The notes under the pieces: model-generated
What the model was told of the DNA's origin: nothing
Seen by the model: the letters and a program-made list of their open reading frames with translations, nothing else
Databases searched by the model: none
Assembly: GCF_004322755.1 (NCBI RefSeq)
Contig: NZ_CP036401.1
Coordinates: forward strand, 2,294,001 to 2,358,000
Direction: 5' to 3'
Source: Pseudoduganella albidiflava
GTDB lineage: Bacteria > Pseudomonadota > Gammaproteobacteria > Burkholderiales > Burkholderiaceae_D
DNA: 64,000 nt
Made by a program: the position numbers and the translations under genes
Shown: positions 12,853 through 57,648 of the stretch, piece by piece
How positions within the stretch are numbered: position 1 is the stretch's first letter
Layout of the letters: each line of letters opens with the position of its first letter

Positions 12853-15800
12853 TCAGTGCACCGTCGAGATCGCCTCGCGCAAGGCCGCGCCGCCCATCAA
12901 TGGCGCGGCCGGCGCGGATTTCCGCATCGGCACCGCCCGCTGTGGCAAGCCTTCCGGCAGGATCGGGTCCATCGCCAGCTGCGTCAGCAACTCGGTCTGG
13001 CCGTTGAGCTGGTACGCGAGCACGCCGTAGTAATACTTGCCTTCGTCGAGTCCGCTCCACGCCAGGCCCACGGTACCGGTGCTGCCCTTGCCGAGCATGG
13101 CCGGCGCCGAGACGCGCAGGTTGCCGGCATCCTGCCCCGGCGCGATGACCCAGGTGGACAGCGCGAAGGTGGCGCTCACACCGTTGTGCGGTCCTTCGCT
13201 GGCGACGCAGATGGTGTAGTCGCCCGGTTCCGGATTGGTGGTGGCCGCCGAGCCGTTCCCGCCGTAGGGCACGAAGCCGACCAGCTGGCCGTGCGGGTCG
13301 ATGACGAACAGGTTCAGGGAATCGCTCCAGCCCTGGCTGCCGGCCAGCGAGTCCGAATCGAACACCGCGAACCGCGCGGCCAGCGTGCCACCCGGGATCG
13401 ACACCGTTTTCGTCGCCACCTGCGCGCTGCCGCCCGCCAGGCACGCCGCCAGCGCGGCGTCCACGCCGATCCCGCCCTGGACCGTCATCACGTCCTTGTG
13501 CGGCGGCACCAGCCCGCTGACGCCGACCTTCAGCCTGGCGGACGAACCGGCGATGATCGGGATCAGCTTGCGGCCGATGCGCTGGTCGCCGATCAGGTAC
13601 TCCGGCGCGTCGATGACCATGGCACGCGCCTGCAGCGGGCTGCGCACGCGGTGCGCGCCGTCGCTCCACTCCAGGTAACCATAGGACCAGGCCAGGTTCT
13701 CCGCCGTGGTACGCGTCAGCGTGACCGTGAAACTGCCCGTTTCACCCGGCGCCAGGGTCAGCTCGGCGGGACTGACGGCGACGTCGAAGCCATCCAGCTG
13801 CGCTTGGGCCCGGTAGGTCGCGGCGGTGGCGCCCACGTTCTTCACGGTGCGCGACAGGACTTCGCTCACCGCGACCGAAGGCGCCGTCAGCGCTGCCTGG
13901 TTCAGGTTGGTATCCGTCGTCGTGCCGACGGTCCGGCAGGTTTCGGGCGCCACGCCGATGGACTCGGCACCGCACAGGAAGCGCTGCCAGTCGAGCGTGC
14001 CGGCGTCGTACACGAGGCCCGGATCGCCGGCGGCGTTGGGCTGCACGAAGCCGGCGCCCTGGCCCCACGGCAGCGTGCCGGACAGTTCACCGGTGAAGTC
14101 GCCTTCGCGCGTCTGCGCCGCGGTCGTCATCAGCGCCGACTTGATCGCGGCGGGCGACCAGCCGGGATGCTGCTGGCGCAGCAGCGCCGCCAGGCCCGCC
14201 ACGTGCGGGCTGGCCATCGACGTACCGGTATGGAAGCCGAACCGCGCCGAGCCGGGCGCCGTGCCGGCCTGGACGATGCTGTTGCGATACTCCTGGTCCC
14301 CGGCCGGCGTGATGCCGGCCAGGATCTCGAGGCCGGGCGCCGCCAGGTCGGGCTTCATGACGCCGGGCACCACGATGTTCGGGCCGCGCGACGAGAACGA
14401 CGTGACCGAAGGCGATGGATGCAGGTTGTCATGGATGCCGAAGGCCGACATTTCCAGCTTCGCATCGGGATGCCCGGCCAGGTGGCGCACCAGCGCTTCG
14501 CCATCGACCGGCAGCAGGTCGACCGTGGACACCGCGTAGTCGACGTGGTGCGGCGCTTCGTTGAACTCCAGCAGGACCATGCCGGCCGCGCCGGCCGCCT
14601 GCGCCACCACGCTCTTGGCCTTGGGCGCGATGCCGCCGGCTTCGCAGATCAGCACCTTGCCGGCCACCAGCTCCGGGTCGACCAGGCCGTCGGGCCCGGC
14701 ACCGGCGGCGTTCGCGTCGGCCGCGCTGAAGCACAGCGCGCGGGCATAGCGGTCCGCGTCGGACAACTGGTCGAACGGCTTGCGGCCCGCGTTGTGCGCG
14801 AAGATGAACGGGGTCGGCGGCAATGGGGCGCGATTGAGAGAACCCCCGATCAGCGTCGGGCCGCCGGGGACGGCCAGCACCGCGCCGGTCACCTTGTCGT
14901 GGTTCGTGGCCGCAACGGTGGCCAGCCATGGCACGGCGTGCGCGACCGGGTACATCGGCCCGTCGTTGCCCGCCGAGGTGGCCACGAATACGCCGGCGGC
15001 GGCGGCCCCCAGGAACGCCTGGTCGACCGGGTCGTCGATCGACCAGGTGCCGCCGATCGAGAAGTTCAGCACGTCGACGCCATCGGCCACGGCCTGTTCG
15101 ATCGCCGCCACCGAATCGCTCTGCATGCAATTGGTCTTCACGTCGTCCGGAGCAGCCGGCAGCGTGTGGGTCCAGCACACCTTGTACGCGGCTATCCGGG
15201 CGCGCGGCGCCATGCCCGACGCGGCGCCTGCCGGTACGCCGTCGAGCGCCACCGCCACGCCATGGTTGCCCCCGGCGGTGGATGCCGTGTGCGTGCCATG
15301 CCCCCGGCCCGAACCGGCCGTATGGATGCCGTCGCGGGGCGAGCGGAACTCGTTCCAGTGCAGGCGCGCGCCTTCCGCCATCCGCGCCGCGCTGAACGAG
15401 CGGGCGCCGACCAGCTTGTTGTTGCAGGCCGCCACCGTGAATCCTTCGCCGGTTTCGCAGGTGCCTTGCCATGTCGCCGGCGGCGCGCCATAGACGAGGG
15501 TGCCGCTGGCGGCATGGGTCGGCTTGCCTTCGGCATCGATGCGGTCGGCGAAGGCCGTATGTTCGGGCCAGATGCCGGTGTCGATCACGCCGATGACGAC
15601 ATCCTCGCCCGCCTTCGTGCTACCGCCCAGCTGGCTCCACAGGCCACCCGGCTGGTCGAGGCCGAGGTAGGTGGGGGTGTGGTTGGTGTCGAGCTGGAGC
15701 GGCTTCTCGGCGATCACGGCACGCACGCCCGGCTGCCGCTGCAGCGCGCGTGCTTCGGCCGGCGTCAGCAGGACCGACAAGCCGTTATAGACCAGCTGGT

Positions 15801-16089
15801 AGCTGTGCAGCACGCGGGCACCCCGGTAACGGGCCAGCAGCGCCTGCTGCTTCTGGCGCAGGAAGCCGGTATAGCTGGCCACGGCCGCGGAGTTTGCGTT
15901 CAGTTGCATGCCGCGCGCGGGGCGGGTGGCGCCCAGGCCGGCAATGCCGCCCTCGTAGCTGGCGGCCGGCTTGTCGGCGAGCTGCACGATATAGGTCCGG
16001 CGCGCCGTGTCGGCGGCCAGCGCGGACCCGGTCGCGCACAGCAGCAGGGCAGGGATCAGGAAAAGGAGCTTCTGGTAAGGGGGCTTCAT
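12853..16089 (-). CDS. Secreted S8 (subtilisin-like) serine peptidase
   Basis: A 1078-residue exported protease. A signal peptide with an LLFLIPALLLCATG core ends near ALAA (residue 26). An I9-type propeptide region runs to about 130. The catalytic triad is visible: Asp170 (VIGVIDTGIW), His264 (GRGHGTHTAS) and Ser624 (GTSMASPHVAG), with the oxyanion Asn375 (SAGNDGP). Between His and Ser lies an inserted PA-like domain (about 440-540), as in cucumisin/pyrolysin-type enzymes. The C-terminal 400 residues look like Fn3/pre-peptidase beta domains. The ORF is open 167 codons further upstream, but the ATG at 16089 begins the signal peptide and overlaps the stop of the PEP-CTERM gene (ATGA). No sorting tag is seen at its own C-terminus. 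Confidence 0.93.
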   Translation of the reverse strand: MKPPYQKLLFLIPALLLCATGSALAADTARRTYIVQLADKPAASYEGGIAGLGATRPARGMQLNANSAAVASYTGFLRQKQQALLARYRGARVLHSYQLVYNGLSVLLTPAEARALQRQPGVRAVIAEKPLQLDTNHTPTYLGLDQPGGLWSQLGGSTKAGEDVVIGVIDTGIWPEHTAFADRIDAEGKPTHAASGTLVYGAPPATWQGTCETGEGFTVAACNNKLVGARSFSAARMAEGARLHWNEFRSPRDGIHTAGSGRGHGTHTASTAGGNHGVAVALDGVPAGAASGMAPRARIAAYKVCWTHTLPAAPDDVKTNCMQSDSVAAIEQAVADGVDVLNFSIGGTWSIDDPVDQAFLGAAAAGVFVATSAGNDGPMYPVAHAVPWLATVAATNHDKVTGAVLAVPGGPTLIGGSLNRAPLPPTPFIFAHNAGRKPFDQLSDADRYARALCFSAADANAAGAGPDGLVDPELVAGKVLICEAGGIAPKAKSVVAQAAGAAGMVLLEFNEAPHHVDYAVSTVDLLPVDGEALVRHLAGHPDAKLEMSAFGIHDNLHPSPSVTSFSSRGPNIVVPGVMKPDLAAPGLEILAGITPAGDQEYRNSIVQAGTAPGSARFGFHTGTSMASPHVAGLAALLRQQHPGWSPAAIKSALMTTAAQTREGDFTGELSGTLPWGQGAGFVQPNAAGDPGLVYDAGTLDWQRFLCGAESIGVAPETCRTVGTTTDTNLNQAALTAPSVAVSEVLSRTVKNVGATAATYRAQAQLDGFDVAVSPAELTLAPGETGSFTVTLTRTTAENLAWSYGYLEWSDGAHRVRSPLQARAMVIDAPEYLIGDQRIGRKLIPIIAGSSARLKVGVSGLVPPHKDVMTVQGGIGVDAALAACLAGGSAQVATKTVSIPGGTLAARFAVFDSDSLAGSQGWSDSLNLFVIDPHGQLVGFVPYGGNGSAATTNPEPGDYTICVASEGPHNGVSATFALSTWVIAPGQDAGNLRVSAPAMLGKGSTGTVGLAWSGLDEGKYYYGVLAYQLNGQTELLTQLAMDPILPEGLPQRAVPMRKSAPAAPLMGGAALREAISTVH

Positions 16090-16898
16090 GCGCGGCCTCC
16101 GTTGCGAAGGCGGCGCGTGCGGCTTGCCGCGCCCAGCAGCGCGAGGCCGCCGGCCAGCATGGCCAGTGCCGACGGTTCCGGCACGGCGCTCACGCTCAGG
16201 GTGCCCACCGCGAACTGCGAGGCGTTCAGCAGGGTGCCGTCGTTCAGGCAGGCACCGGCCGCGGTGTACGCGCACGCGTCGATCCGCAGGCTGGTCAGGC
16301 TTGTGCCGGCAAAGGCATTGTCCAGTGTCCAGTCGGCCCAGGCATGCAATTCGGGCAGGTCGGCCGTTGCGGTGATCACCGATCCCGCCGCCGTGGTGCC
16401 CCACAGGCGCAGCTGTCCCATGCTGTGCGCCGCGCCTTCCTCGCTTTCCGGGCCGATGCCGGCATAGGTCAGCGCCGACAGCCGGAAGGCACTGCCATCC
16501 TCGCGGGAGAGCGTCAGCGAGCCGTCGTTCACGCCCGCATAGTACGAAGTTTCGCCGAACGGGCAGGCCAGGAAGGTGCATGCCGACCACTGCTGGGCAC
16601 CGACGACGGCGCCGGCCAGGCCGGGCTCGTAGTCGGGAAACGACTGTGCGAACGCGCTGTCCGCCACCACCGCCAGGAAGCGGTCGGTCGTGAAGCGGTC
16701 GCCGCCGTTGTACAGGGGGCTGTCCGCCGGCAGTGCCGGGGTGACGATATTGCTGACATTGTCGAAACCGATCGTGGCCGCCTGGGCGGGCGGCGTGGCG
16801 GCGCTGGCCAGCACGGCGGCGCAGGCCAGCAGGCCGATACCGGAACGGATGCGCCTGCCGGGTGGCGCGGCAGTGCGGGAACTCGATAGCTTGGTCAT
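16086..16898 (-). CDS. PEP-CTERM sorting-domain protein
   Basis: A 270-residue exported protein. An N-terminal signal sequence (LLACAAVLASAATPPAQA) is followed by a beta-rich body starting ATIGFDNVSN. The C-terminal PEP-CTERM tag has VPEPSALAMLAGGLALLG, then the arginine-rich RTRRLR tail recognised by the exosortase/XrtA system. Its stop overlaps the start of the subtilase gene by ATGA, so the two are translationally coupled. This suggests the pair acts together outside the cell. The body resembles the extracellular-matrix-type PEP-CTERM proteins, but its function is not known. Confidence 0.88.
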   Translation of the reverse strand: MTKLSSSRTAAPPGRRIRSGIGLLACAAVLASAATPPAQAATIGFDNVSNIVTPALPADSPLYNGGDRFTTDRFLAVVADSAFAQSFPDYEPGLAGAVVGAQQWSACTFLACPFGETSYYAGVNDGSLTLSREDGSAFRLSALTYAGIGPESEEGAAHSMGQLRLWGTTAAGSVITATADLPELHAWADWTLDNAFAGTSLTSLRIDACAYTAAGACLNDGTLLNASQFAVGTLSVSAVPEPSALAMLAGGLALLGAASRTRRLRNGGRA

Positions 16899-16963
16899 GG
16901 GTTATCCCTGTAAGTGGAGGAGGAGCGACCGCCGCGCCACCGGAAAACGTAACAAAGATCGGA

Positions 16964-16979
16964 CTGATAGCGCTATCAG
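16964..16979. promoter_or_regulatory. LacI-type operator-like palindrome
   Basis: Perfect 16-bp palindrome CTGATAGCGCTATCAG, 66 bases upstream of the PEP-CTERM start. A central CG step in an AT-flanked palindrome is the usual signature of LacI/GalR-family operators. The 8-base core TAGCGCTA recurs at 17133-17140, 165 bases away, which would allow looping. No LacI-family gene is in the window. Confidence 0.55.
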
Positions 16980-17200
16980 CGGTGAGTCGATGCTATCGCA
17001 ACTTCGTCATCGCGCCATGCAATTTTTTTAACGAAAAATTCGGCCGGGTCCAGCCATGCAGAGTGAAAGTAGCGCGTTCGCTGCTGAAACACGAGCCGCG
17101 AATACGAGGCTTGTGTTGTAAAATATCTACGATAGCGCTAGCAAATGGCTTGCGCGAAAGGGAGATTGCGGGCCGTCGAGCGTGGCCCGCGAGCGGTGCT

Positions 17201-17290
17201 TGAATCAGCTTGAATCAGCTTGAATCAGCTTGAATCAGCTTGAATCAGCTTGAATCAGCTTGAATCAGCTTGAATCAGCTTGAATCAGCC
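17201..17290. repeat. 10-bp tandem repeat, nine units
   Basis: Eight perfect consecutive units of TGAATCAGCT and a ninth ending in C. It lies downstream of the 3-hydroxybutyrate dehydrogenase terminator. The unit length is close to one helical turn. Confidence 0.95.
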
Positions 17291-17324
17291 GGAGTTGCCT
17301 TGCGTAGATTAAGTGTCTGGCAGC

Positions 17325-17357
17325 AAAAAAGGCGCCGGTCGCGTGCCGACCGGGCGC
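17325..17357 (-). terminator. Terminator of 3-hydroxybutyrate dehydrogenase gene
   Basis: On the minus strand, a GCGCCCGGTCG / CGACCGGCGC stem with a one-base bulge and GCACG loop, followed by CTTTTTT. It lies 12 bases after the stop. Confidence 0.85.
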
Positions 17358-17368
17358 TCATTGAGGCC

Positions 17369-18178
17369 TTACTGGGCCACCCAGCCACCGTCGACGTTCC
17401 AGGCCGCGCCACGTACCTGGCTGGCCACGTCGCTGCACAGGAACACGGCCAGGCCGCCCAGCTGCTCGGGTGTCACGAAGTCGCCGGACGGCTGCTTGTC
17501 GGCCAGCAGCGCGCGCTTGGCCTGGTCGTTCGTCAGGCCATCGCGGGCGGCACGGTCGTCGACCTGTTTCTGCACCAGCGGGGTGAGCACGAAGCCGGGG
17601 CAGATCGCATTGACCGTCACGCCGGTCTGCGCCGTTTCCAGCGCTGTCACCTTGGTCAGGCCCACCAGGCCGTGCTTGGCGGCCACGTAGGCGGACTTGC
17701 CCGCGGAGCCGACCAGGCCGTGTGCCGAAGCGAGGTTGATGATGCGGCCCCAGTTCTGCTGCCTCATCCGCGGCAGGGCCAGGCGGCTGGTGTGGAAGGC
17801 GGAAGTCAGGTTGATGGCGATGATGGCATCCCATTTCTCGACCGGGAAGTCTTCGACATTGGCGACGAACTGGATGCCGGCATTGTTGACGAGCACGTCG
17901 ACGCCGCCGAATTTTTCGGTGGCGAACGCGAACAGCGCCTCGATTTCCGCCGGCTTACTCATGTCGGCATTGTGGTGTACGGTCTGCACGCCGAATTCCT
18001 GCGCGGTCGATGCCAGCAGGGTGGCGATGTCGTCGGCATTGCCGAAGCCGTTGAAGACGATGTTGGCGCCTTGCGCGGCCAGTGCGCGGGCGATACCCAG
18101 GCCGATGCCGGAGGTGGATCCCGTCACGAGGGCCGTTTTACCGGAAAGGATAGTGCCGTTCGAAGGTGTGCTGCTCAT
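17369..18178 (-). CDS. bdhA: 3-hydroxybutyrate dehydrogenase
   Basis: A 269-residue NAD-dependent SDR oxidising D-3-hydroxybutyrate to acetoacetate. TGSTSGIG is at residues 19-26, VNNAGIQFV and INLASAHGLVGS are characteristic of this subfamily, and YVAAK gives Tyr164 and Lys168. The C-terminus GAAWNVDGGWVAQ also matches bacterial BdhA. The ATG at 18178 is preceded by GGAG; an ATG four codons upstream has no ribosome-binding site. It feeds scoAB. Confidence 0.93.
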   Translation of the reverse strand: MSSTPSNGTILSGKTALVTGSTSGIGLGIARALAAQGANIVFNGFGNADDIATLLASTAQEFGVQTVHHNADMSKPAEIEALFAFATEKFGGVDVLVNNAGIQFVANVEDFPVEKWDAIIAINLTSAFHTSRLALPRMRQQNWGRIINLASAHGLVGSAGKSAYVAAKHGLVGLTKVTALETAQTGVTVNAICPGFVLTPLVQKQVDDRAARDGLTNDQAKRALLADKQPSGDFVTPEQLGGLAVFLCSDVASQVRGAAWNVDGGWVAQ

Positions 18179-51271: not shown

Positions 51272-51676
51272 CTACTTCGCGGGCGTGGCCAGCGGCTGGC
51301 CCTTCTCGATCACGTACACGCCGACCAGTTTCGTCGTCGTGCTGCCCGGATTGCGCGCGTCGTGCACCACGCCGGCGGGGATGATGATCGCTTCGCCGGC
51401 TTTCACGCGCCGCGGTGGCGCACCGTCGATCAGCAGTTCGCCTTCGCCATCGAGAAAATAGGTGATTTCGTCGCCCGGGTGCGTGTGGCGGCCCGCGGTG
51501 GCGCCGGGTGCCAGTTCGACGTGGGCGACGACCGCTTCGCGGTTGGGCACGGAGATGTCACCGCGGGTGATGACGGTGCGCTTGATGCCGGTGGGCTGGG
51601 CCAGGGAACTGGTGCAGGGCAGGGCTAGCAGTGCTAGTGACACAGCGGCCATCGCGGCCGCGGCTTGGCGTCTCAT
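51272..51676 (-). CDS. Exported cupin-domain protein
   Basis: A 134-residue small cupin with an N-terminal signal peptide (AAVSLALLALPCTSSLAQ). The cupin motif 1 is GRHTHPGDEITYFLDGEGEL with the His, His and Glu metal ligands. Motif 2 is PAGVVHDARNPG. GGAGG lies six bases before the ATG at 51676; the longer ORF is not supported. A periplasmic metal-binding or sugar-type cupin; substrate unknown. It is downstream of and in the same direction as the small genes at 51814 and 52307. Confidence 0.88.
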   Translation of the reverse strand: MRRQAAAAMAAVSLALLALPCTSSLAQPTGIKRTVITRGDISVPNREAVVAHVELAPGATAGRHTHPGDEITYFLDGEGELLIDGAPPRRVKAGEAIIIPAGVVHDARNPGSTTTKLVGVYVIEKGQPLATPAK

Positions 51677-51813
51677 CGTCTCCTCCATGGTGGTGGTGGC
51701 TGCACGGGTGTGCAGGTCGATGGTACGCGCGATGGCGCGGCCGCTCAACCATTTCGCGATGAGCTTGATCTGGCAAGCGCAAGCCGGGTTGGGTCCCGGC
51801 TTGCGTGAACCCG

Positions 51814-52044
51814 TCAGCCCTTGGCCCCCGGACCATTTGGCTCTTCCGGCACCGTCATGGTGCTCGGCTCGTTCTCCGACTCCTCGTTCGGTTCGGCTGC
51901 CGGACCGTGAGGGGCTGGAGCGGCCTGCTGCGCTTCAGCCGGCGCTGCGAAGCTCGAGCCAGCTGCGGTATTTGCGGCAGCGGCAGTGGTGAAGGCGCCT
52001 GCAGTGGCAATACCCAGGATGAGGGTGGTGATCGATTTTTTCAT
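51814..52044 (-). CDS. Small exported peptide with C-terminal VPEEPN motif
   Basis: A 76-residue protein starting MKKSITTLILGIATAGAFTTAAAA, a clear signal peptide. The mature part is Ala/Pro/Glu-rich and ends TMTVPEEPNGPGAKG. The end matches that of the 54-residue product at 52307-52471 (TLVPEEPNNPTIKG). No cysteine, no known domain. Ribosome-binding site weak. I do not recognise the family; secreted signal, structural peptide or precursor are all possible. Confidence 0.6.
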   Translation of the reverse strand: MKKSITTLILGIATAGAFTTAAAANTAAGSSFAAPAEAQQAAPAPHGPAAEPNEESENEPSTMTVPEEPNGPGAKG

Positions 52045-52075
52045 AAACAGGTTATTGGTTCTTTGAGTTGAGGAT

Positions 52076-52198
52076 TCACTGCAGCGCATGCGGCAATGGT
52101 GTGCCCTTGCCTGCGATGTTCAGCGCATCCGGGATGCTCACTGCTTCCCGGGTGCGGACAGCATTGCTGCGATTCCGGTCTGTCTGCGACGCAAACAT
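52076..52198 (-). CDS. Possible 40-codon ORF between the two small genes
   Basis: A minus-strand reading frame from ATG 52198 (GGAAGG ten bases upstream; an ATG at 52222 would add eight residues) to the TGA at 52076. The product ends REAVSIPDALNIAGKGTPLPHALQ-like, with reasonable amino-acid composition. It shows no VPEEPN motif. Evidence is only the open frame and position. Confidence 0.25.
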   Translation of the reverse strand: MFASQTDRNRSNAVRTREAVSIPDALNIAGKGTPLPHALQ

Positions 52199-52306
52199 AA
52201 CGATGATGCCTTCCGTCGCCATGCCACGTCGTCAGTGCCCTATTGCGGCGATAGGAGCTGATGGCTGGATGCCTCGGTAAGGCATCCGTTGATCATCTTC
52301 GCGCCC

Positions 52307-52471
52307 TCAGCCCTTAATCGTGGGATTGTTGGGCTCTTCCGGGACCAACGTGGCGACCGGTATGGAAGGTGCGGTGGGTGCGGTGGGTGCGCTCTCGGCC
52401 GGCTGCGCGAGCGGCTCTTTCTTGGTGCCGGATTCCGTATTCTCCGATGCCGGTTTGTTTTTCTCAGTCAT
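52307..52471 (-). CDS. Small 54-residue protein coupled to the STAND regulator gene
   Basis: Starts MTEKNKPASENTESGTKKEP and ends TLVPEEPNNPTIKG. Hydrophilic, Pro/Ala/Glu-rich, no signal peptide or cysteine. AGGAG lies eight bases before its ATG, inside the 3' end of the upstream 1089-codon gene, which it overlaps by eight bases, implying translational coupling. The VPEEPN C-terminus is shared with the exported 76-residue product downstream. No family recognised. Confidence 0.65.
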   Translation of the reverse strand: MTEKNKPASENTESGTKKEPLAQPAESAPTAPTAPSIPVATLVPEEPNNPTIKG

Positions 52472-55400
52472 GATGGTTACTCCTGTTGTGGTGGGTGAAT
52501 GAAATACGGTGAAGGGATGCCGGGTCGCGAAACTTCATGTCCAGCAGCCTCTCCCAATCGGCGCGGGCAGTTGCACTGTTGCCTCTGCAGTAATTTGCCT
52601 GCACCAGCGCGGCGAGAATGAAATATTCTGTTTCCGGACGGCGCATTGGCCCCAGGATGGATGCTGCTTCCATGCAGGCAAAAACCGCCTCCTCGGTCAG
52701 TCGGCGTTCCCTCAGGATATCGGCATGTGCCAGCAGTGCGTCCGCAAACTGGAGGCGCAGGGACATGTCCCCGCTCAAAGGCCTCGGGGCAGCCCTTAGC
52801 GTCTCGAGCACAGGACCGAGCGCCAGCGCTGCCTTATCAATTTCCTTCATCCGTACAAGGGTATCGGCAATGTAGATATCGAGTTGCATGCTCACGCGGG
52901 TCAGCTCGGCTTGAGTCGGATCGGCTGCGGCTAGGCGGGCGGTTCCATGGCGCAGGGCCTGAAGTTCTGCCAGCGCCTTTGCCGGAGCAGCATAAGATGA
53001 GAGGTATGCCGATTTGATGGCGATGACATGCAAATTGCGTTGCCAGGTCAGATTGCTGGGGTCATTCTTGACGAATGCTGCCATGATCGTGTGAGCTTCC
53101 CGCCATCTGTCCTGGCTGGTAGCCAAGCCAAGCGCCTGTTCTATCTCTGCAAGGTGCGACACGGCGGACGCGAGGCGCACTCCCCATTCGGTATTGGTGC
53201 GATGGCGTTCAAGAACTGGATGGATCAGCTGTCGCTCGGTGTCATACAGGGTCCTTGCATCTTCCAGCGCGCCGCGCGCTGCCGTGGCTTTGGCCAGCCA
53301 GGAATAAGTACCGGCAAGGCTCATGATCAAACCGTCGTCGCCCGGCCGCATGTCGATGACCGCGCGTTTCAGCCGGATCGCCTCCTTGAACGCCGCGCTG
53401 GCGGCGACGAAATCGCGGCGGCCCATTTGAACGCTGCCGATATTGTGGTGTGCATAGGCAAGCTCGAGCACGCTATCGGCATCGCGCGGTGCCAGCTCCA
53501 CCAACTTCCGGCTCAAGTCACGATACTGCGCGACATATTCAAGAGCGACGGACCAGTCGTCCCGGTCGCGATGAATTTTGCTCAGCCAGAACGCCACGGC
53601 CCCCTGCGCCTTCAGCGCTGCCCTGTCGTCAGGCACCCGCGCGAGATGCCGCGAAAGAATGCCGCGCGCCGCCAGCAGCGCGGTCTGGGCGGAATCCGGC
53701 TTGGCACGCGCAATATCGACTTCGGCGATCACCTGCAACGCCTTTGCGCGCTGCACCGCCGTCCGGGGATCGCCGTCGTCCGTGCCACCGGCAAGGTAGG
53801 CCAGCGCTCGCTTGCTCACATCGTCCAGCAGATCCAGCCGGCCCAGCGGCCGCAGCTTGTCGGCGAAATCCCCGAGCATGAAGCCCAGCAGTCCTTCGGC
53901 GTCGGCGCGGCGCCGGTCCGCATCCTGTTGCGCGGCCCGTGCCGTCAGGCCGAGCACACCCGCCAGCACTGCCAGCAGCGCGATCACCGCCACCACCGCC
54001 ATGCGTATGCGCTCGCCCAGCTTGACCCGCCGCAGCGACGCGTCGACGAACTCGGCTTCCTGCGCGGACAGGGAAATGTCGGCCGAATCCAGCACGGTAC
54101 GAGCCTGGTTGGCCTGGATGCCGGGCGGCAGCAGCAGGTCGCGTGGGCGCCCGGCCGCGGCCCAGCGCGCCGCCTGCGCTGTAATCCGCGTACGCACCTG
54201 CAGCGTTTGCCGGTGGACTTCGATCCAGTTCGCGATGCGGGGCCAGCGCCGCAGCAGCGCCTCGTGGGCCACGCCGAAGCCGGGCACGTCGCCGGCCAGT
54301 TCGCTGACGAACAGACGCGCTTCCACCAGCGCGCGGACCAGATCGCGCTCGGCTTCATCGCGCAAGACCGCCCAGGGGGCGCGGCGCGCCGTGACGGCAT
54401 GCTGCTCCTCGCCGATGCAGACCAGCAGCGACAGCACGCGTGGCAGCGCGGCCTGCTGTGCGGCGGGCAGCGCGGCGACGACCTGCTCGGCACGCACGCC
54501 CAGCGCGCCCTCGATGCCGCCCAGCTGGCGGAACACCTGGAAGCGCAGCAGGCCGTCGTCGCCGCGCTGGCGGTACAGTTCATCGAGGCAGTATTGCAGC
54601 AGCGGTAGCGCGTCCGGGCTGGCGCGGGCGGCGTCGCACAGCACGTCGTCCAGGCTGGCGCCGGTATCGGCTTCCCGCTCGAACGCCAGCCTGGCGGCGC
54701 GCGCCGGTTCGCGCACCATTTGCGCGATGGCCGCGCCATCGGGCGGCTCCACGTCGAAATGGCCGCCGCGCGTCTTCAGCGCCATCATTTCCGGCACGGC
54801 CATCAATTCGGGATAGAAATCGTTGCGGCAGGCCAGCACGACCAGCACGTTGGCGCGCGCCAGGCGGTCCAGCGCCTGGAAGAATGCCGTACGGTCGGCG
54901 GCGCTGTCCGCGGTGCGGAACACGGCCTCCAGCCGGTCGACGAACACGGCCAGCCGGGCCGGCCCGTCCGGCGCCAGGTGCGCGGCCACGGCGGCCGGTT
55001 CGTCGCGCAGCCGCTGGCCGAGCGTGGCGGCATCGAGGCCGTCGAACAGCAGGGCGTTGCCGCATTCGGCGTCACTGCGTTCCGCGTCGAGCAGCACGGC
55101 GGCCAGCGCGCCGAGCAGGCCGCTGCCGCCCAGGTCCGCGCAATCCATGTGCAGCGTGCAGTCGAGGGCGACGAGTCCGCCGTTTGTAACCATCAGTTGC
55201 GGCAGCAGGCCGGCGCGTACCAGCGAAGTCTTGCCGGACCCGGAAGCCCCCAGCACCAGCGCCATCGCGCAGCCGCCATCGACCTGGTCGAGCACCGTCT
55301 GGCGCAGCCGCGTGGCCGCCTGCACCCGGCCGAAGAAGATCGCCGCGTGGCTTTCCTCGAACGCGGCCAGGCCCCGGAACGGCGAGCCCTGGTCCCAGCC

Positions 55401-55733
55401 GCCGGGAGCTTCTTCCTCTTCCACCACGTCGGCGATGGCGCGGTAGCCGCGCTTGCGCACCGTTTCGATATAGCGCGGCGCCGTGCTGGAATCGCCCAGC
55501 GCCTTGCGCAACTGGGCGATCGCCTTGTGCACCGGGTTGTCGCCAAGTTCAGGCGTGCCCCAGCATTTTTCCAGCAATTCCTCGGGCGGGATGACCGCGT
55601 GCGGATGGCGGCAAAGGTAGCGCAGCACGTCCATGGCGCGCGGTTCCAGGCCCACGCGCGTGTCGCCATTGCGCAAGGAATTGCCTGCCACCTCCACTTG
55701 CCAGTCGCCGAAGCGAAACCCGCGATGAGCCAT
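52464..55733 (-). CDS. Winged-helix / STAND NTPase / membrane / helical-repeat regulator
   Basis: A 1089-residue protein. Residues 5-102: OmpR/PhoB-type winged helix (FRFGDWQVEVAGNSL, LEPRAMDVLRYLCRHP, VHKAIAQLRKALGD, YIETVRKRGYRAI). Residues 118-136: SPFRGLAAFEESHAAIFFGR, the N-terminal mark of nSTAND1-type NTPases. Walker A GASGSGKTS 162-170; Walker B-like LAVFVDRLEAVF 261-272. One membrane helix at about 577-597 (MAVVAVIALLAVLAGVLGL). Residues 610-1089: helical, TPR-like. By CadC-like topology the DNA-binding part and NTPase are cytoplasmic and the C-terminal repeats periplasmic. No histidine-kinase or receiver domain. It overlaps the 54-codon gene at its 3' end and is divergent from the 55880 gene. 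Confidence 0.85.
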   Translation of the reverse strand: MAHRGFRFGDWQVEVAGNSLRNGDTRVGLEPRAMDVLRYLCRHPHAVIPPEELLEKCWGTPELGDNPVHKAIAQLRKALGDSSTAPRYIETVRKRGYRAIADVVEEEEAPGGWDQGSPFRGLAAFEESHAAIFFGRVQAATRLRQTVLDQVDGGCAMALVLGASGSGKTSLVRAGLLPQLMVTNGGLVALDCTLHMDCADLGGSGLLGALAAVLLDAERSDAECGNALLFDGLDAATLGQRLRDEPAAVAAHLAPDGPARLAVFVDRLEAVFRTADSAADRTAFFQALDRLARANVLVVLACRNDFYPELMAVPEMMALKTRGGHFDVEPPDGAAIAQMVREPARAARLAFEREADTGASLDDVLCDAARASPDALPLLQYCLDELYRQRGDDGLLRFQVFRQLGGIEGALGVRAEQVVAALPAAQQAALPRVLSLLVCIGEEQHAVTARRAPWAVLRDEAERDLVRALVEARLFVSELAGDVPGFGVAHEALLRRWPRIANWIEVHRQTLQVRTRITAQAARWAAAGRPRDLLLPPGIQANQARTVLDSADISLSAQEAEFVDASLRRVKLGERIRMAVVAVIALLAVLAGVLGLTARAAQQDADRRRADAEGLLGFMLGDFADKLRPLGRLDLLDDVSKRALAYLAGGTDDGDPRTAVQRAKALQVIAEVDIARAKPDSAQTALLAARGILSRHLARVPDDRAALKAQGAVAFWLSKIHRDRDDWSVALEYVAQYRDLSRKLVELAPRDADSVLELAYAHHNIGSVQMGRRDFVAASAAFKEAIRLKRAVIDMRPGDDGLIMSLAGTYSWLAKATAARGALEDARTLYDTERQLIHPVLERHRTNTEWGVRLASAVSHLAEIEQALGLATSQDRWREAHTIMAAFVKNDPSNLTWQRNLHVIAIKSAYLSSYAAPAKALAELQALRHGTARLAAADPTQAELTRVSMQLDIYIADTLVRMKEIDKAALALGPVLETLRAAPRPLSGDMSLRLQFADALLAHADILRERRLTEEAVFACMEAASILGPMRRPETEYFILAALVQANYCRGNSATARADWERLLDMKFRDPASLHRISFTHHNRSNHHD

Positions 55734-55784
55734 CCGATCGACATCCCCGAAATTATTTTCTTATATGAATCAGTGACTTGACTC

Positions 55785-55805
55785 TTCCGGAAGGTTTCCG
55801 GAAGG
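55785..55805. promoter_or_regulatory. 11-bp direct repeat, candidate binding site of the winged-helix regulator
   Basis: TTCCGGAAGG - T - TTCCGGAAGG. Each unit contains the palindrome TTCCGGAA. Direct repeats spaced one helical turn are the typical target of OmpR-type winged helices. It lies in the 146-bp space between the divergent STAND regulator and the 55880 gene. Confidence 0.6.
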
Positions 55806-55879
55806 CGCCCGCGCGGCTGGGTGACTACAGTCTTGCTAACTGATCGACCCCCATCTTAACATTTCTCTATAACAAATAG

Positions 55880-56602
55880 ATGTCAAATTCTTACAACTCC
55901 TTCGACCTGGCGGATTTCCCGCGGCGCTACCTGAAACCCTTGCTGGTCGATGCGCTGCAAGCCAGGCTCGCGGCATGGCCGGTCGCGCTGGCGCTGCCTC
56001 CGGCCGCCGTGGCCGACCCGCTGGGCAGCGAAAGCGGGCGCTCCGGCGTGCCGGAGGGAGTGTGGGGCGAGCCCTGCTTCGTGGCCACGGACCGGGGGTG
56101 GACATGGCGCGACCATGCGCTGCTGGCATGGCGGACCGGCGGGGCGCTAGCGCACCAGCGCATCTCGGAGCAGGAGCGCCGCTATGACATCTACCTGTCC
56201 GAACAGCCGGACATGGCCGGCGTGCCGCGCCTGACCGTCGATTTGCACGCGTTGCAGACCTGCTATGAACGCGACGCCATCACGGAGGGGGCCTGCGACC
56301 TGGGCGCCGGATGGGCCAGGCTGACGCAGCGCTGGTCGCTGCGATTGCAACTGATAGTCACGGCAGCTGGCCGGGTCAACGTCATCACCCGCGCAAGCCG
56401 GCCGGCCCCGCGCATGGATGCCGGCCGCAGCGGCCCCTGGCCCGGCGCCGACCCGCTGGCCCGCCTGCTGGACGTGCGGCGGCTGACGCGCGACTGGGAG
56501 CAGGGCGGTGCCTCCCTGGGCGCGGTGCGCGACCAGCTCGTGAGCCGGCTGGCCGCGGCGATCGAACCGCCGCTGGCCCGGTCCGTGCCGCAATTCGCCT
56601 AG
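55880..56602 (+). CDS. Protein of unknown function (240 residues)
   Basis: Not recognised. A soluble, mixed-composition protein without signal peptide or membrane helix, with Trp- and Arg-rich segments (DRGWTWRDHALLAWRTGG, VNVITRASRP). The codon use is like its neighbours. The start has no Shine-Dalgarno; A/T-rich bases precede it. It is 11 bases upstream of the 344-residue gene and probably co-transcribed with it, and divergent from the STAND regulator. Confidence 0.6.
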   Translation: MSNSYNSFDLADFPRRYLKPLLVDALQARLAAWPVALALPPAAVADPLGSESGRSGVPEGVWGEPCFVATDRGWTWRDHALLAWRTGGALAHQRISEQERRYDIYLSEQPDMAGVPRLTVDLHALQTCYERDAITEGACDLGAGWARLTQRWSLRLQLIVTAAGRVNVITRASRPAPRMDAGRSGPWPGADPLARLLDVRRLTRDWEQGGASLGAVRDQLVSRLAAAIEPPLARSVPQFA

Positions 56603-56613
56603 GGCAGGGCGCC

Positions 56614-57648
56614 ATGGTCAACCTGACCCTGCACGCCGGGATGGCGGAGCGCCGGCCGCTGTTCATCGTGCGCGACCGCAACCTGCCGGTGGTCTTCGGC
56701 GTGGACGGCGCCGGCCGGCTGCGCCTGTTGCAGCACATGGGCACCGGGGCCTGGTCCGACACCGACCTGTCGGCCGGGTTGCCCGATGGCGCGACCGTAC
56801 GCTGCGCCGACGTGCGGCAGGCGCCGGACGGCACGCTCAGCATCGCGCTGGCGGTCTGCAATGCAGCCGGCCGGTGCAACCTGCGCATCGGCACCGGCAT
56901 TCCCGTGCAACAGGATGAAGCGGGCTGGCTGCACACCATGCGGCACCTGCCGGTCGCCCCCGGGCTGCCAACCGCTACCCTGGTCACCCACTTGGCGTTC
57001 GGCCCCCTGCAAGCCGGCGCGCCGCCGCTGCTGCTGGTGCACGCGGGCGCGGCCACCTGGTACTGCAACGCGGCCGCGCCGCTGCACACGATGCGCCCGC
57101 TCGACCTGCCGCCCGCGCGGGCATGCGCGATCGGCAATTACCGGCAGCCGGGCATCTGGGTGCTGCATGCCTACGGCAAGGGCAGTTCGCTGCGCTTCAC
57201 GCCGCTGTGCGACCCGTTCGGCTGGTACGTGACGCTCGATTACCCGGACTTGCCGCCCCATGTGGACAGCGTGCTGCTGGCCCCGGGCGCGCAGTCGAAC
57301 GTGCCGGACCTGTACGCGGCGGGCGAACGCATCGTCGTCTACCGGGGCGGCAACACCCCGCCCCAGACGGTGGCGCGCGTCGCCGGCGCCAGGCTGCTGT
57401 GGGGCCACGTGCATGACGGCGCCGACTATCTCGCCTACGCCGATGCCGGCGGCGCCCTGTGGATGCTGGTGCGGCCGCGGCGCGGCGCCTGGCAACCGCC
57501 ATTCCGCCTGACGCGGCGGCGCGCGGTGCTGGCCGTGGCCGGGCAGTTCATCCATGCCGCCGCCATCGAGGAGGGCCGGCTGGAAGTGCAGCGCTTCACG
57601 ATGGATGGCCAGCTGTATGGCAGCGAGCTGGTGGCGGCGGACTGGTGA
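56614..57648 (+). CDS. Protein of unknown function, possible beta-propeller (344 residues)
   Basis: Not recognised. Repeated beta-strand-like segments with the pattern hydrophobic-Val-Asp-Gly (VFGVDGAGRLRLL, LLVHAGAATWYC, WVLHAYGKGSSLRF, DYLAYADAGGALWML) suggest a propeller or lectin-like fold. No signal peptide. The ORF is open about 100 codons upstream overlapping the previous gene; I start at 56614, where ATG follows AGGGCAGGG. It is followed by the gcvP terminator on the other strand. Confidence 0.6.
   Translation: MVNLTLHAGMAERRPLFIVRDRNLPVVFGVDGAGRLRLLQHMGTGAWSDTDLSAGLPDGATVRCADVRQAPDGTLSIALAVCNAAGRCNLRIGTGIPVQQDEAGWLHTMRHLPVAPGLPTATLVTHLAFGPLQAGAPPLLLVHAGAATWYCNAAAPLHTMRPLDLPPARACAIGNYRQPGIWVLHAYGKGSSLRFTPLCDPFGWYVTLDYPDLPPHVDSVLLAPGAQSNVPDLYAAGERIVVYRGGNTPPQTVARVAGARLLWGHVHDGADYLAYADAGGALWMLVRPRRGAWQPPFRLTRRRAVLAVAGQFIHAAAIEEGRLEVQRFTMDGQLYGSELVAADW

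Follow-up and report, generated by a model that had tools for sequence, protein, structure and literature searches.

A winged-helix/STAND/TPR membrane regulator of Pseudoduganella albidiflava and the small tail-bearing genes behind it: a candidate peptide-receptor cassette

Within a 64,000-nucleotide stretch of Pseudoduganella albidiflava DNA (contig NZ_CP036401.1, positions 2,294,001 to 2,358,000; the window in what follows), a minus-strand gene at 52464..55733 encodes a 1089-residue regulator in which an OmpR-type winged helix is followed by an nSTAND1 NTPase, a single membrane helix and a TPR solenoid, all in one chain. The main finding is that this regulator and a small gene directly behind it form a cassette, which is well supported, and that the products of the small genes share a C-terminal tail motif. 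The most economical reading is that the tail is the regulator's ligand, making the pair a peptide-receptor cassette, and we hold the chances of this reading to be about even. The original prediction for this DNA had seen an undescribed signalling module made up of the regulator, tightly coupled small genes and a divergent gene pair. Its small genes have stood up and can be redefined by a C-terminal motif found on at least three precursor scaffolds; the divergent pair has dropped out of the module's core.

The gene behind the regulator

The regulator open reading frame (ORF) is not a product of chance, since 2231 homologues at an expectation value (E) of 1e-10 or better were found among 7999 candidates scored (our homologue listing consists of 120 of the 2231). 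A close named homologue, P0004 of Pseudoduganella sp. SL102, has 87% identity. Of 296 confirmed loci the best 80, here called the named loci, belong to Oxalobacteraceae, Rheinheimera, Shewanella, Nitrospirillum, Dyella and Pseudoxanthomonas, among other taxa. A regulator match is present in 63 of the 74 genus genomes and, at E 1e-20 or better, in 15 of 145 sampled family genomes. Comparisons between loci use a set of 99, from which 2 short matches, 22 duplicates and 11 skipped loci (L001, L100, L102-L106, L136-L139) were excluded.

What follows the regulator at these loci? One gene was picked per locus with a relaxed form of the tail rule, taking the first ATG as start, and at 89 of the 99 distinct loci it encodes a protein of 114-166 residues with the typical end SPDPQVxNxP. 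P[EQD]xxN is present in the picked gene at 91 of the 99 loci, a count in which P and N are fixed by a rule that was formed on L020-L099 and then counted there too; A2 was built from 30 loci already having the tail. Counted without picking, P[EQD]xxN stands at the end of 64 of the 102 ORFs whose starts fall between -120 and +300 nucleotides (nt) of the regulator stop; among the other ORFs of the 80 named loci it does so in 71 of 9352.

Five of six typed downstream proteins match PF08985, the DP-EP family (E 7.7e-24 to 0.0019, the weakest below the cut-off), and the sixth typed example gave no match. A profile for DP-EP-like proteins, kin of PF08985, gave 59 matches in 55 of the 74 genus genomes, every one of them at a distance of -1 to 104 nt behind a regulator match; the 11 genomes that lack the regulator gave no match. 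Eight regulator-bearing genus genomes have no profile match: four of these, the window genome, G564, G596 and G601, have tail-only peptides, three (G542, G576, G577) have double-glycine peptides, and one (G551, L116) is without a clear tail. For 12 further paralogous regulators without a DP-EP profile match, the motif was found in 11 by the strict rule and in the twelfth by eye. Over a sample of 398 genomes from the phylum, PF08985 occurs in six, and in all six a regulator relative stands close upstream, aligning from residues 1-6 to 830-1075 with 35-40% identity.

Structures deposited for one DP-EP protein bear on how the tail might be freed. PDB entries 3n55 and 3njf-3njn, 3njh among them, hold a protein named 'Peptidase', which we take to be SO1698 of Shewanella oneidensis, reported to be self-cleaving; Osipiuk et al. 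are said to have described it in 2012 as a 'self-cleaving and self-assembling endopeptidase'. Four distinct 119-residue chains, of which 3n55 is shown, align to residues 1-116 of the query only and stop at the tail Asp, and four distinct 128-residue chains extend past Asp-Pro through the tail. The full-length chains shown are single Ala changes, at the tail Asp, the following Pro, the Ser two before the Asp, or one position elsewhere. Because the shorter chains end at the Asp of Asp-Pro, the remaining tail begins with Pro, and its form after the cut is P-[EQ]-[VI]-x-N-x-P. Asp stands ahead of the tail Pro in 84 of the 89 DP-EP-size proteins (80 by count and four re-read by eye).

At L076:11797-12771 a PAS-GGDEF diguanylate cyclase gene lies close after the DP-EP gene. 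The DP-EP gene behind the L005 regulator seems frameshifted, and that genome also has six double-glycine peptide frames that are open. At L116:300-1500 (minus strand), what follows a regulator of the 957-residue type is a small hydrophilic ORF with no clear tail. A paralogous regulator group, L146-L157, has tails such as DPQETNVPP and DPEIGN, possibly a second specificity.

The window peptides

The window genome has no DP-EP profile match, and no Pfam family, PF08985 included, was found on either of the two small frames behind its regulator. The first, pepA (52307..52471, minus strand), is a tail-only peptide of 54 residues ending VPEEPNNPTIKG, with an overlap of 8 nt between its start and the regulator stop. 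The second, pepB (51814..52044, minus strand), has 76 residues from the chosen start MKKSITT, ends VPEEPNGPGAKG, and by eye has a Sec-signal-like N-terminus. Both terminate VPEEPNxP. P. umbonata (L096) has counterparts of both; L111 has a pepA counterpart ending VPESGNDPKTHG plus a second tail gene ending VPESGSDPKTQG; and L112 has one, a pepA counterpart ending TPEEPNGPGAKG. A frame at L005 has a second tail, DPEEPNNPEPIKFA, which is intermediate in form. The original prediction had proposed looking for small VPEEPN genes across the family. PEEPN itself proves narrow, being seen in the window, L096 and L112, with PESGN in L111, and it is the general P[EQD]xxN that recurs with the regulator. 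For the pepA and pepB tails the best match lies in the same genome in three of three cases, too few for a test, and a loose tail pattern is uninformative in the window genome, with 39 matches (pepA and pepB included) versus 21 for the reversed pattern.

Could the DP-EP protein instead be to the regulator what ToxS is to ToxR, a structural partner, its tail strand plugging the groove of the sandwich in cis or in trans and never acting as a free signal? In the SO1698 crystal the cut tail reportedly remains bound as a strand. The gene is a coupled neighbour, 50 of 96 downstream starts overlapping the regulator stop and 36 of them at -4, and DP-EP and regulator co-occur strictly in the genus genomes. 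ToxR/ToxS and VtrA/VtrC are themselves adjoining, partly overlapping genes, according to PMC9214523. However, the sandwich has been lost while tail and regulator are retained, both in the four genomes of the window clade and at L024-L026, and the 89 DP-EP proteins show no clear export signal by crude hydropathy. The persistence of tail and regulator where the sandwich is gone is the main reason for thinking that the tail acts on the regulator itself, and we consider a structural partnership unlikely.

A cupin gene follows pepB in the window (51272-51676, minus strand), with a relative in nine loci, the window copy included.

A second scaffold: double-glycine leader peptides

Small genes with unrelated N-termini, in which GG or GA is followed by P[EQD]xxN near the end, occur, for example, at L022, L036 and L043 and in G106 (six). 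The DP-EP tail of L022 is PDVNNDPEPQ, and its double-glycine peptides have PEVVNDPDPV, PDVNNDPQPV and PDLDNDPPPT. L024-L026 have the double-glycine form only, as PE[LI]GHD, which lies outside the P[EQD]xxN rule. As a DNA pattern, the double-glycine form was found at 12 places in five of the 74 genus genomes (reversed control 0), all on the regulator strand and 635-5782 nt downstream of the regulator. The 145 family genomes gave three matches, all in G106 (control 0); in 399 order genomes the single match, which falls within a long frame and away from its end, looks like chance beside two matches of the reversed control.

These peptides resemble known double-glycine leader peptides with C39 ATP-binding cassette (ABC) exporters in the GG/GA motif, at which cleavage is predicted, and in the C39 exporter nearby in seven loci. 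They differ in that the mature part bears a DP-EP-like tail and in being placed at a regulator locus. A C39 domain is encoded in the flank of L022, L024, L025, L026, L036, L038 and L145; at L036 and L038 it lies on the opposite strand. Pfam confirmed C39 and HlyD genes in both loci tested, L022 and L024. L043 has double-glycine peptides and no C39 domain in the flank examined.

Several double-glycine peptides together with a C39 exporter resemble bacteriocin loci, and one might suppose that these peptides and the DP-EP proteins are the product of the system, bacteriocin-like or structural, while the regulator senses something else. Yet the tail gene stays beside the regulator at 91 of 99 loci, whereas the divergent neighbours vary among loci, and in our judgement this second alternative is quite unlikely.

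The regulator

The reading of the regulator as a single 1089-residue chain with a winged helix, STAND Walker motifs, one membrane helix and C-terminal repeats was right throughout, as Pfam, alignment and AlphaFold2 bear out. The winged helix (residues 25-98; 55440..55661, minus strand) matches Trans_reg_C with E 2.8e-17 and 63 bits against a cut-off of 26.2; its best PDB sequence match is 5ju7, the DNA-binding domain of CadC. The nSTAND1 domain (residues 118-531; 54141..55382, minus strand) has E 2.9e-89 and 300.8 bits against a cut-off of 27.1. It is kept in 30 homologues, with Walker A GASGSGKTS (162-170) and the Walker B region FVDRLEA (264-270) conserved across the 30-sequence alignment. 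C-terminal to it, hydropathy marks a membrane helix at residues 578-597 (53943..54002, minus strand; mean 2.87), which is the strongest hydrophobic segment at the same place in all 30 aligned homologues. Ten of the 30 have an extra, weaker segment (>1.7) within the NTPase, and the AlphaFold2 model is weak precisely at the membrane helix.

The searches with hidden Markov models proposed for the repeats turned out less simply, TPR_1 being below its cut-off (E 0.047); the TPR fold was seen by AlphaFold2 instead. Residues 656-1085 (52479..53768, minus strand) are modelled as a helical-hairpin solenoid with a predicted local distance difference test score (pLDDT) mostly >90. TPR domains are its top structural matches, the RapI, NprR and Rap-Phr structures being among the best, and we propose it as the peptide-binding domain.

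STAND NTPases are found in anti-phage systems, and the nSTAND1 domain would suit a sensor of defence-like kind, the tail gene then acting as its guard or inhibitor, but PADLOC gave only a weak mad8 match (27 residues, E 0.004), Pfam found no effector domain on the regulator besides winged helix, NTPase and weak TPR, and there is a local DNA repeat instead, so that a role in conflict is very improbable.

Two regulators of G545 (C1:4054317-4057522 and 4180686-4183915) are each split in two frames, a winged helix-STAND part and a membrane-TPR part; the halves are perhaps separate genes, perhaps broken ones.

The direct repeat upstream of the regulator

The intergenic region common to the regulator operon and the divergent pair (55734..55879) contains a direct repeat with a period of 11 base pairs (bp), CCTTCCGGAAA CCTTCCGG, which we take as a putative operator, CCTTCCGGAAA/CCTTCCG (55788..55805, minus strand), from scans of upstream regions and pattern searches of genomes. 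OmpR/PhoB-type domains bind direct repeats of about 11-bp period. An 8-of-9 match at a spacing of 11 is found in 34 of 99 upstream regions, three of which (L009, L019, L093) carry other sequences, versus one of 99 shuffled regions; the other spacings from 9 to 16 are found in 1-7 regions each. The chance expectation for the window repeat is 0.02. In the genus, the exact repeat gave 34 matches in 33 of the 74 genomes, that is, in 33 of the 63 with a regulator and none of the 11 without. All but one of the 34 (the exception is in G586) stand 42-105 nt upstream of a regulator match, and the reversed control gave 0. A stricter pattern with a leading A is found in two of the 74 genomes, both sites upstream of the regulator. 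As the exact repeat is mostly found upstream of the regulator, the regulator looks mainly local, acting on the operon it belongs to and on the divergent genes. A scan of 51700-55900 for sigma-70-like promoter sites found none, 0.5 being expected. Two repeat matches away from a regulator, G586:C11:701779-701796 and, in the window genome, G000:C1:1717070-1717087, are possible further targets.

A proposed mechanism

How might the cassette work? The signal would be the C-terminal tail, P-[EQ]-[VI]-x-N-x-P, of a precursor made from the small gene. Most relatives would make this precursor as a DP-EP beta-sandwich that is cut at Asp-Pro ahead of the tail; some would obtain a similar Pro-first tail from double-glycine leader peptides, which a C39 ABC transporter would likely cut and export; in the window clade, where the sandwich is gone, the tail peptides pepA and pepB would alone be left. 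The TPR solenoid, probably periplasmic, would bind the tail, whereupon the STAND NTPase would switch and the winged helix would bind the 11-bp direct repeat in the region that separates the regulator from the divergent pair. The output would be the regulator's own operon, as feedback, and in the window the TULIP-like and propeller-like genes. More tentatively, with somewhat less than an even chance, we suggest that Pseudomonadota have a widespread class of peptide signalling between cells, so far undescribed, in which a winged-helix/STAND/TPR membrane receptor with a Pro-first tail ligand acts through positive feedback at an 11-bp repeat, the tail being freed by a self-cutting beta-sandwich, freed by double-glycine leader cleavage, or made bare.

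Several observations weigh against the tail as ligand. The tail gene was not seen at L015, L063 and L116, and five of the 89 DP-EP-size proteins lack Asp before the tail Pro. The want of a clear secretion signal on the DP-EP proteins leaves the route to a periplasmic domain unexplained; a loose hydropathy cut, which also catches strands, is passed by 11 of the 89, and pepB just passes it. The exact repeat is absent from 30 of the 63 regulator genomes, and allowing one mismatch gives three matches in the window genome, one of them the window site and another a second exact site, with one match in the reversed control. Co-variation of tail and regulator domains, by partial Mantel test on 91 pairs, favours no domain: partial r with tail distance is 0.086 for the C-terminal part, 0.089 for STAND and 0.099 for the winged helix, near-equal values that are no evidence for the TPR domain as the tail's partner. 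Concordance between DP-EP and double-glycine tails at five loci ranks 14 of 120, no better than shuffled pairs. TPR solenoids bind many things, and fold likeness gives no function. Duplicated tails within one protein agree at 30 of 32 positions, versus a shuffled mean of 15.4 (P 5e-05; eight proteins, picked and aligned by eye), and we give this little weight, recent internal duplication explaining it equally well.

Relation to known systems

The RRNPP receptors of Bacillota (Rap, NprR, PlcR) share with the cassette a TPR receptor fold and an adjacent small propeptide gene. The regulator, from a Pseudomonadota host, adds an OmpR-type winged helix, a STAND NTPase and a membrane helix, and the cassette precursors include a beta-sandwich cut at Asp-Pro. 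The DP-EP-size precursors (114-166 residues) also exceed the 100-residue default used for RRNPP propeptides in PMC10075063. We have not filed the system as RRNPP: those receptors are cytosolic and without a membrane helix, and the regulator has one at 578-597. CadC/ToxR-like regulators, including ToxR/ToxS and VtrA/VtrC, are alike in having an OmpR-type winged helix, one membrane helix and an adjoining small partner gene. They differ in that here a STAND NTPase lies between winged helix and membrane, the C-terminus is TPR only, and the partner, in place of a ToxS or VtrC co-component, is a DP-EP or peptide gene; the CadC equivalog NF007540 gives 74.3 of 400 bits, below its cut-off. AfsR/SARP and MalT are soluble STAND regulators, and AfsR has a BTAD domain; Pfam reported no BTAD on the regulator at E up to 0.1, and it was not placed there. 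PF08985 is the usual downstream partner of the regulator, and the window peptides are without that domain.

No account of a link between regulator and DP-EP was found among the papers that the literature searches listed, most subscription papers falling outside coverage. By the account in PMC10075063, the quorum signals of Pseudomonadota are, as usually described, small molecules made by enzymes. That picture would be altered by a cassette that links peptide and receptor genetically in Shewanella, Rheinheimera, Duganella and Pseudoduganella, among others. It would also suggest a role for the DP-EP family, structurally solved and with no biological role found described: if the proposal is true, the 'self-cleaving endopeptidase' gains a function as a pro-signal that releases its own pheromone.

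The divergent genes

Two plus-strand genes diverge from the regulator operon in the window, both proposed output genes. The first (55880..56602) encodes d240, a 240-residue protein homologous to the C-terminal half of c14 proteins; it has no Pfam match. A c14 model seems to resemble the TULIP P47/OrfX2 fold, and a PDB sequence search with the c14 alignment gave 0 matches. The second (56614..57648, start chosen) encodes a 344-residue, possibly beta-propeller, lectin-like protein with a weak BP39L-family lectin match (E 0.0015, 17.5 of 400 bits) and no Pfam match. Does the pair belong to the core of the module, as had been supposed? Among the 80 named loci, the nearest divergent gene is of the c14 type, kin of d240, in 16 and belongs to cluster c2 in 28, with none found in 19 (clusters take in only ORFs with a relative in another locus). 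The pair thus does not co-occur with the regulator as a core part would, and is clade-specific.

Divergent genes of a second family, with a motif like YxIGxE, stand beside the cassette at L062:6936-7793, L049:7063-7851 and L095:7029-7892 (minus strand); the L062 and L049 members have no Pfam match. Downstream of the L062 cassette, at 15113-17734 (minus strand), lies a gene for a c14 protein with N-terminal beta/gamma-crystallin repeats.

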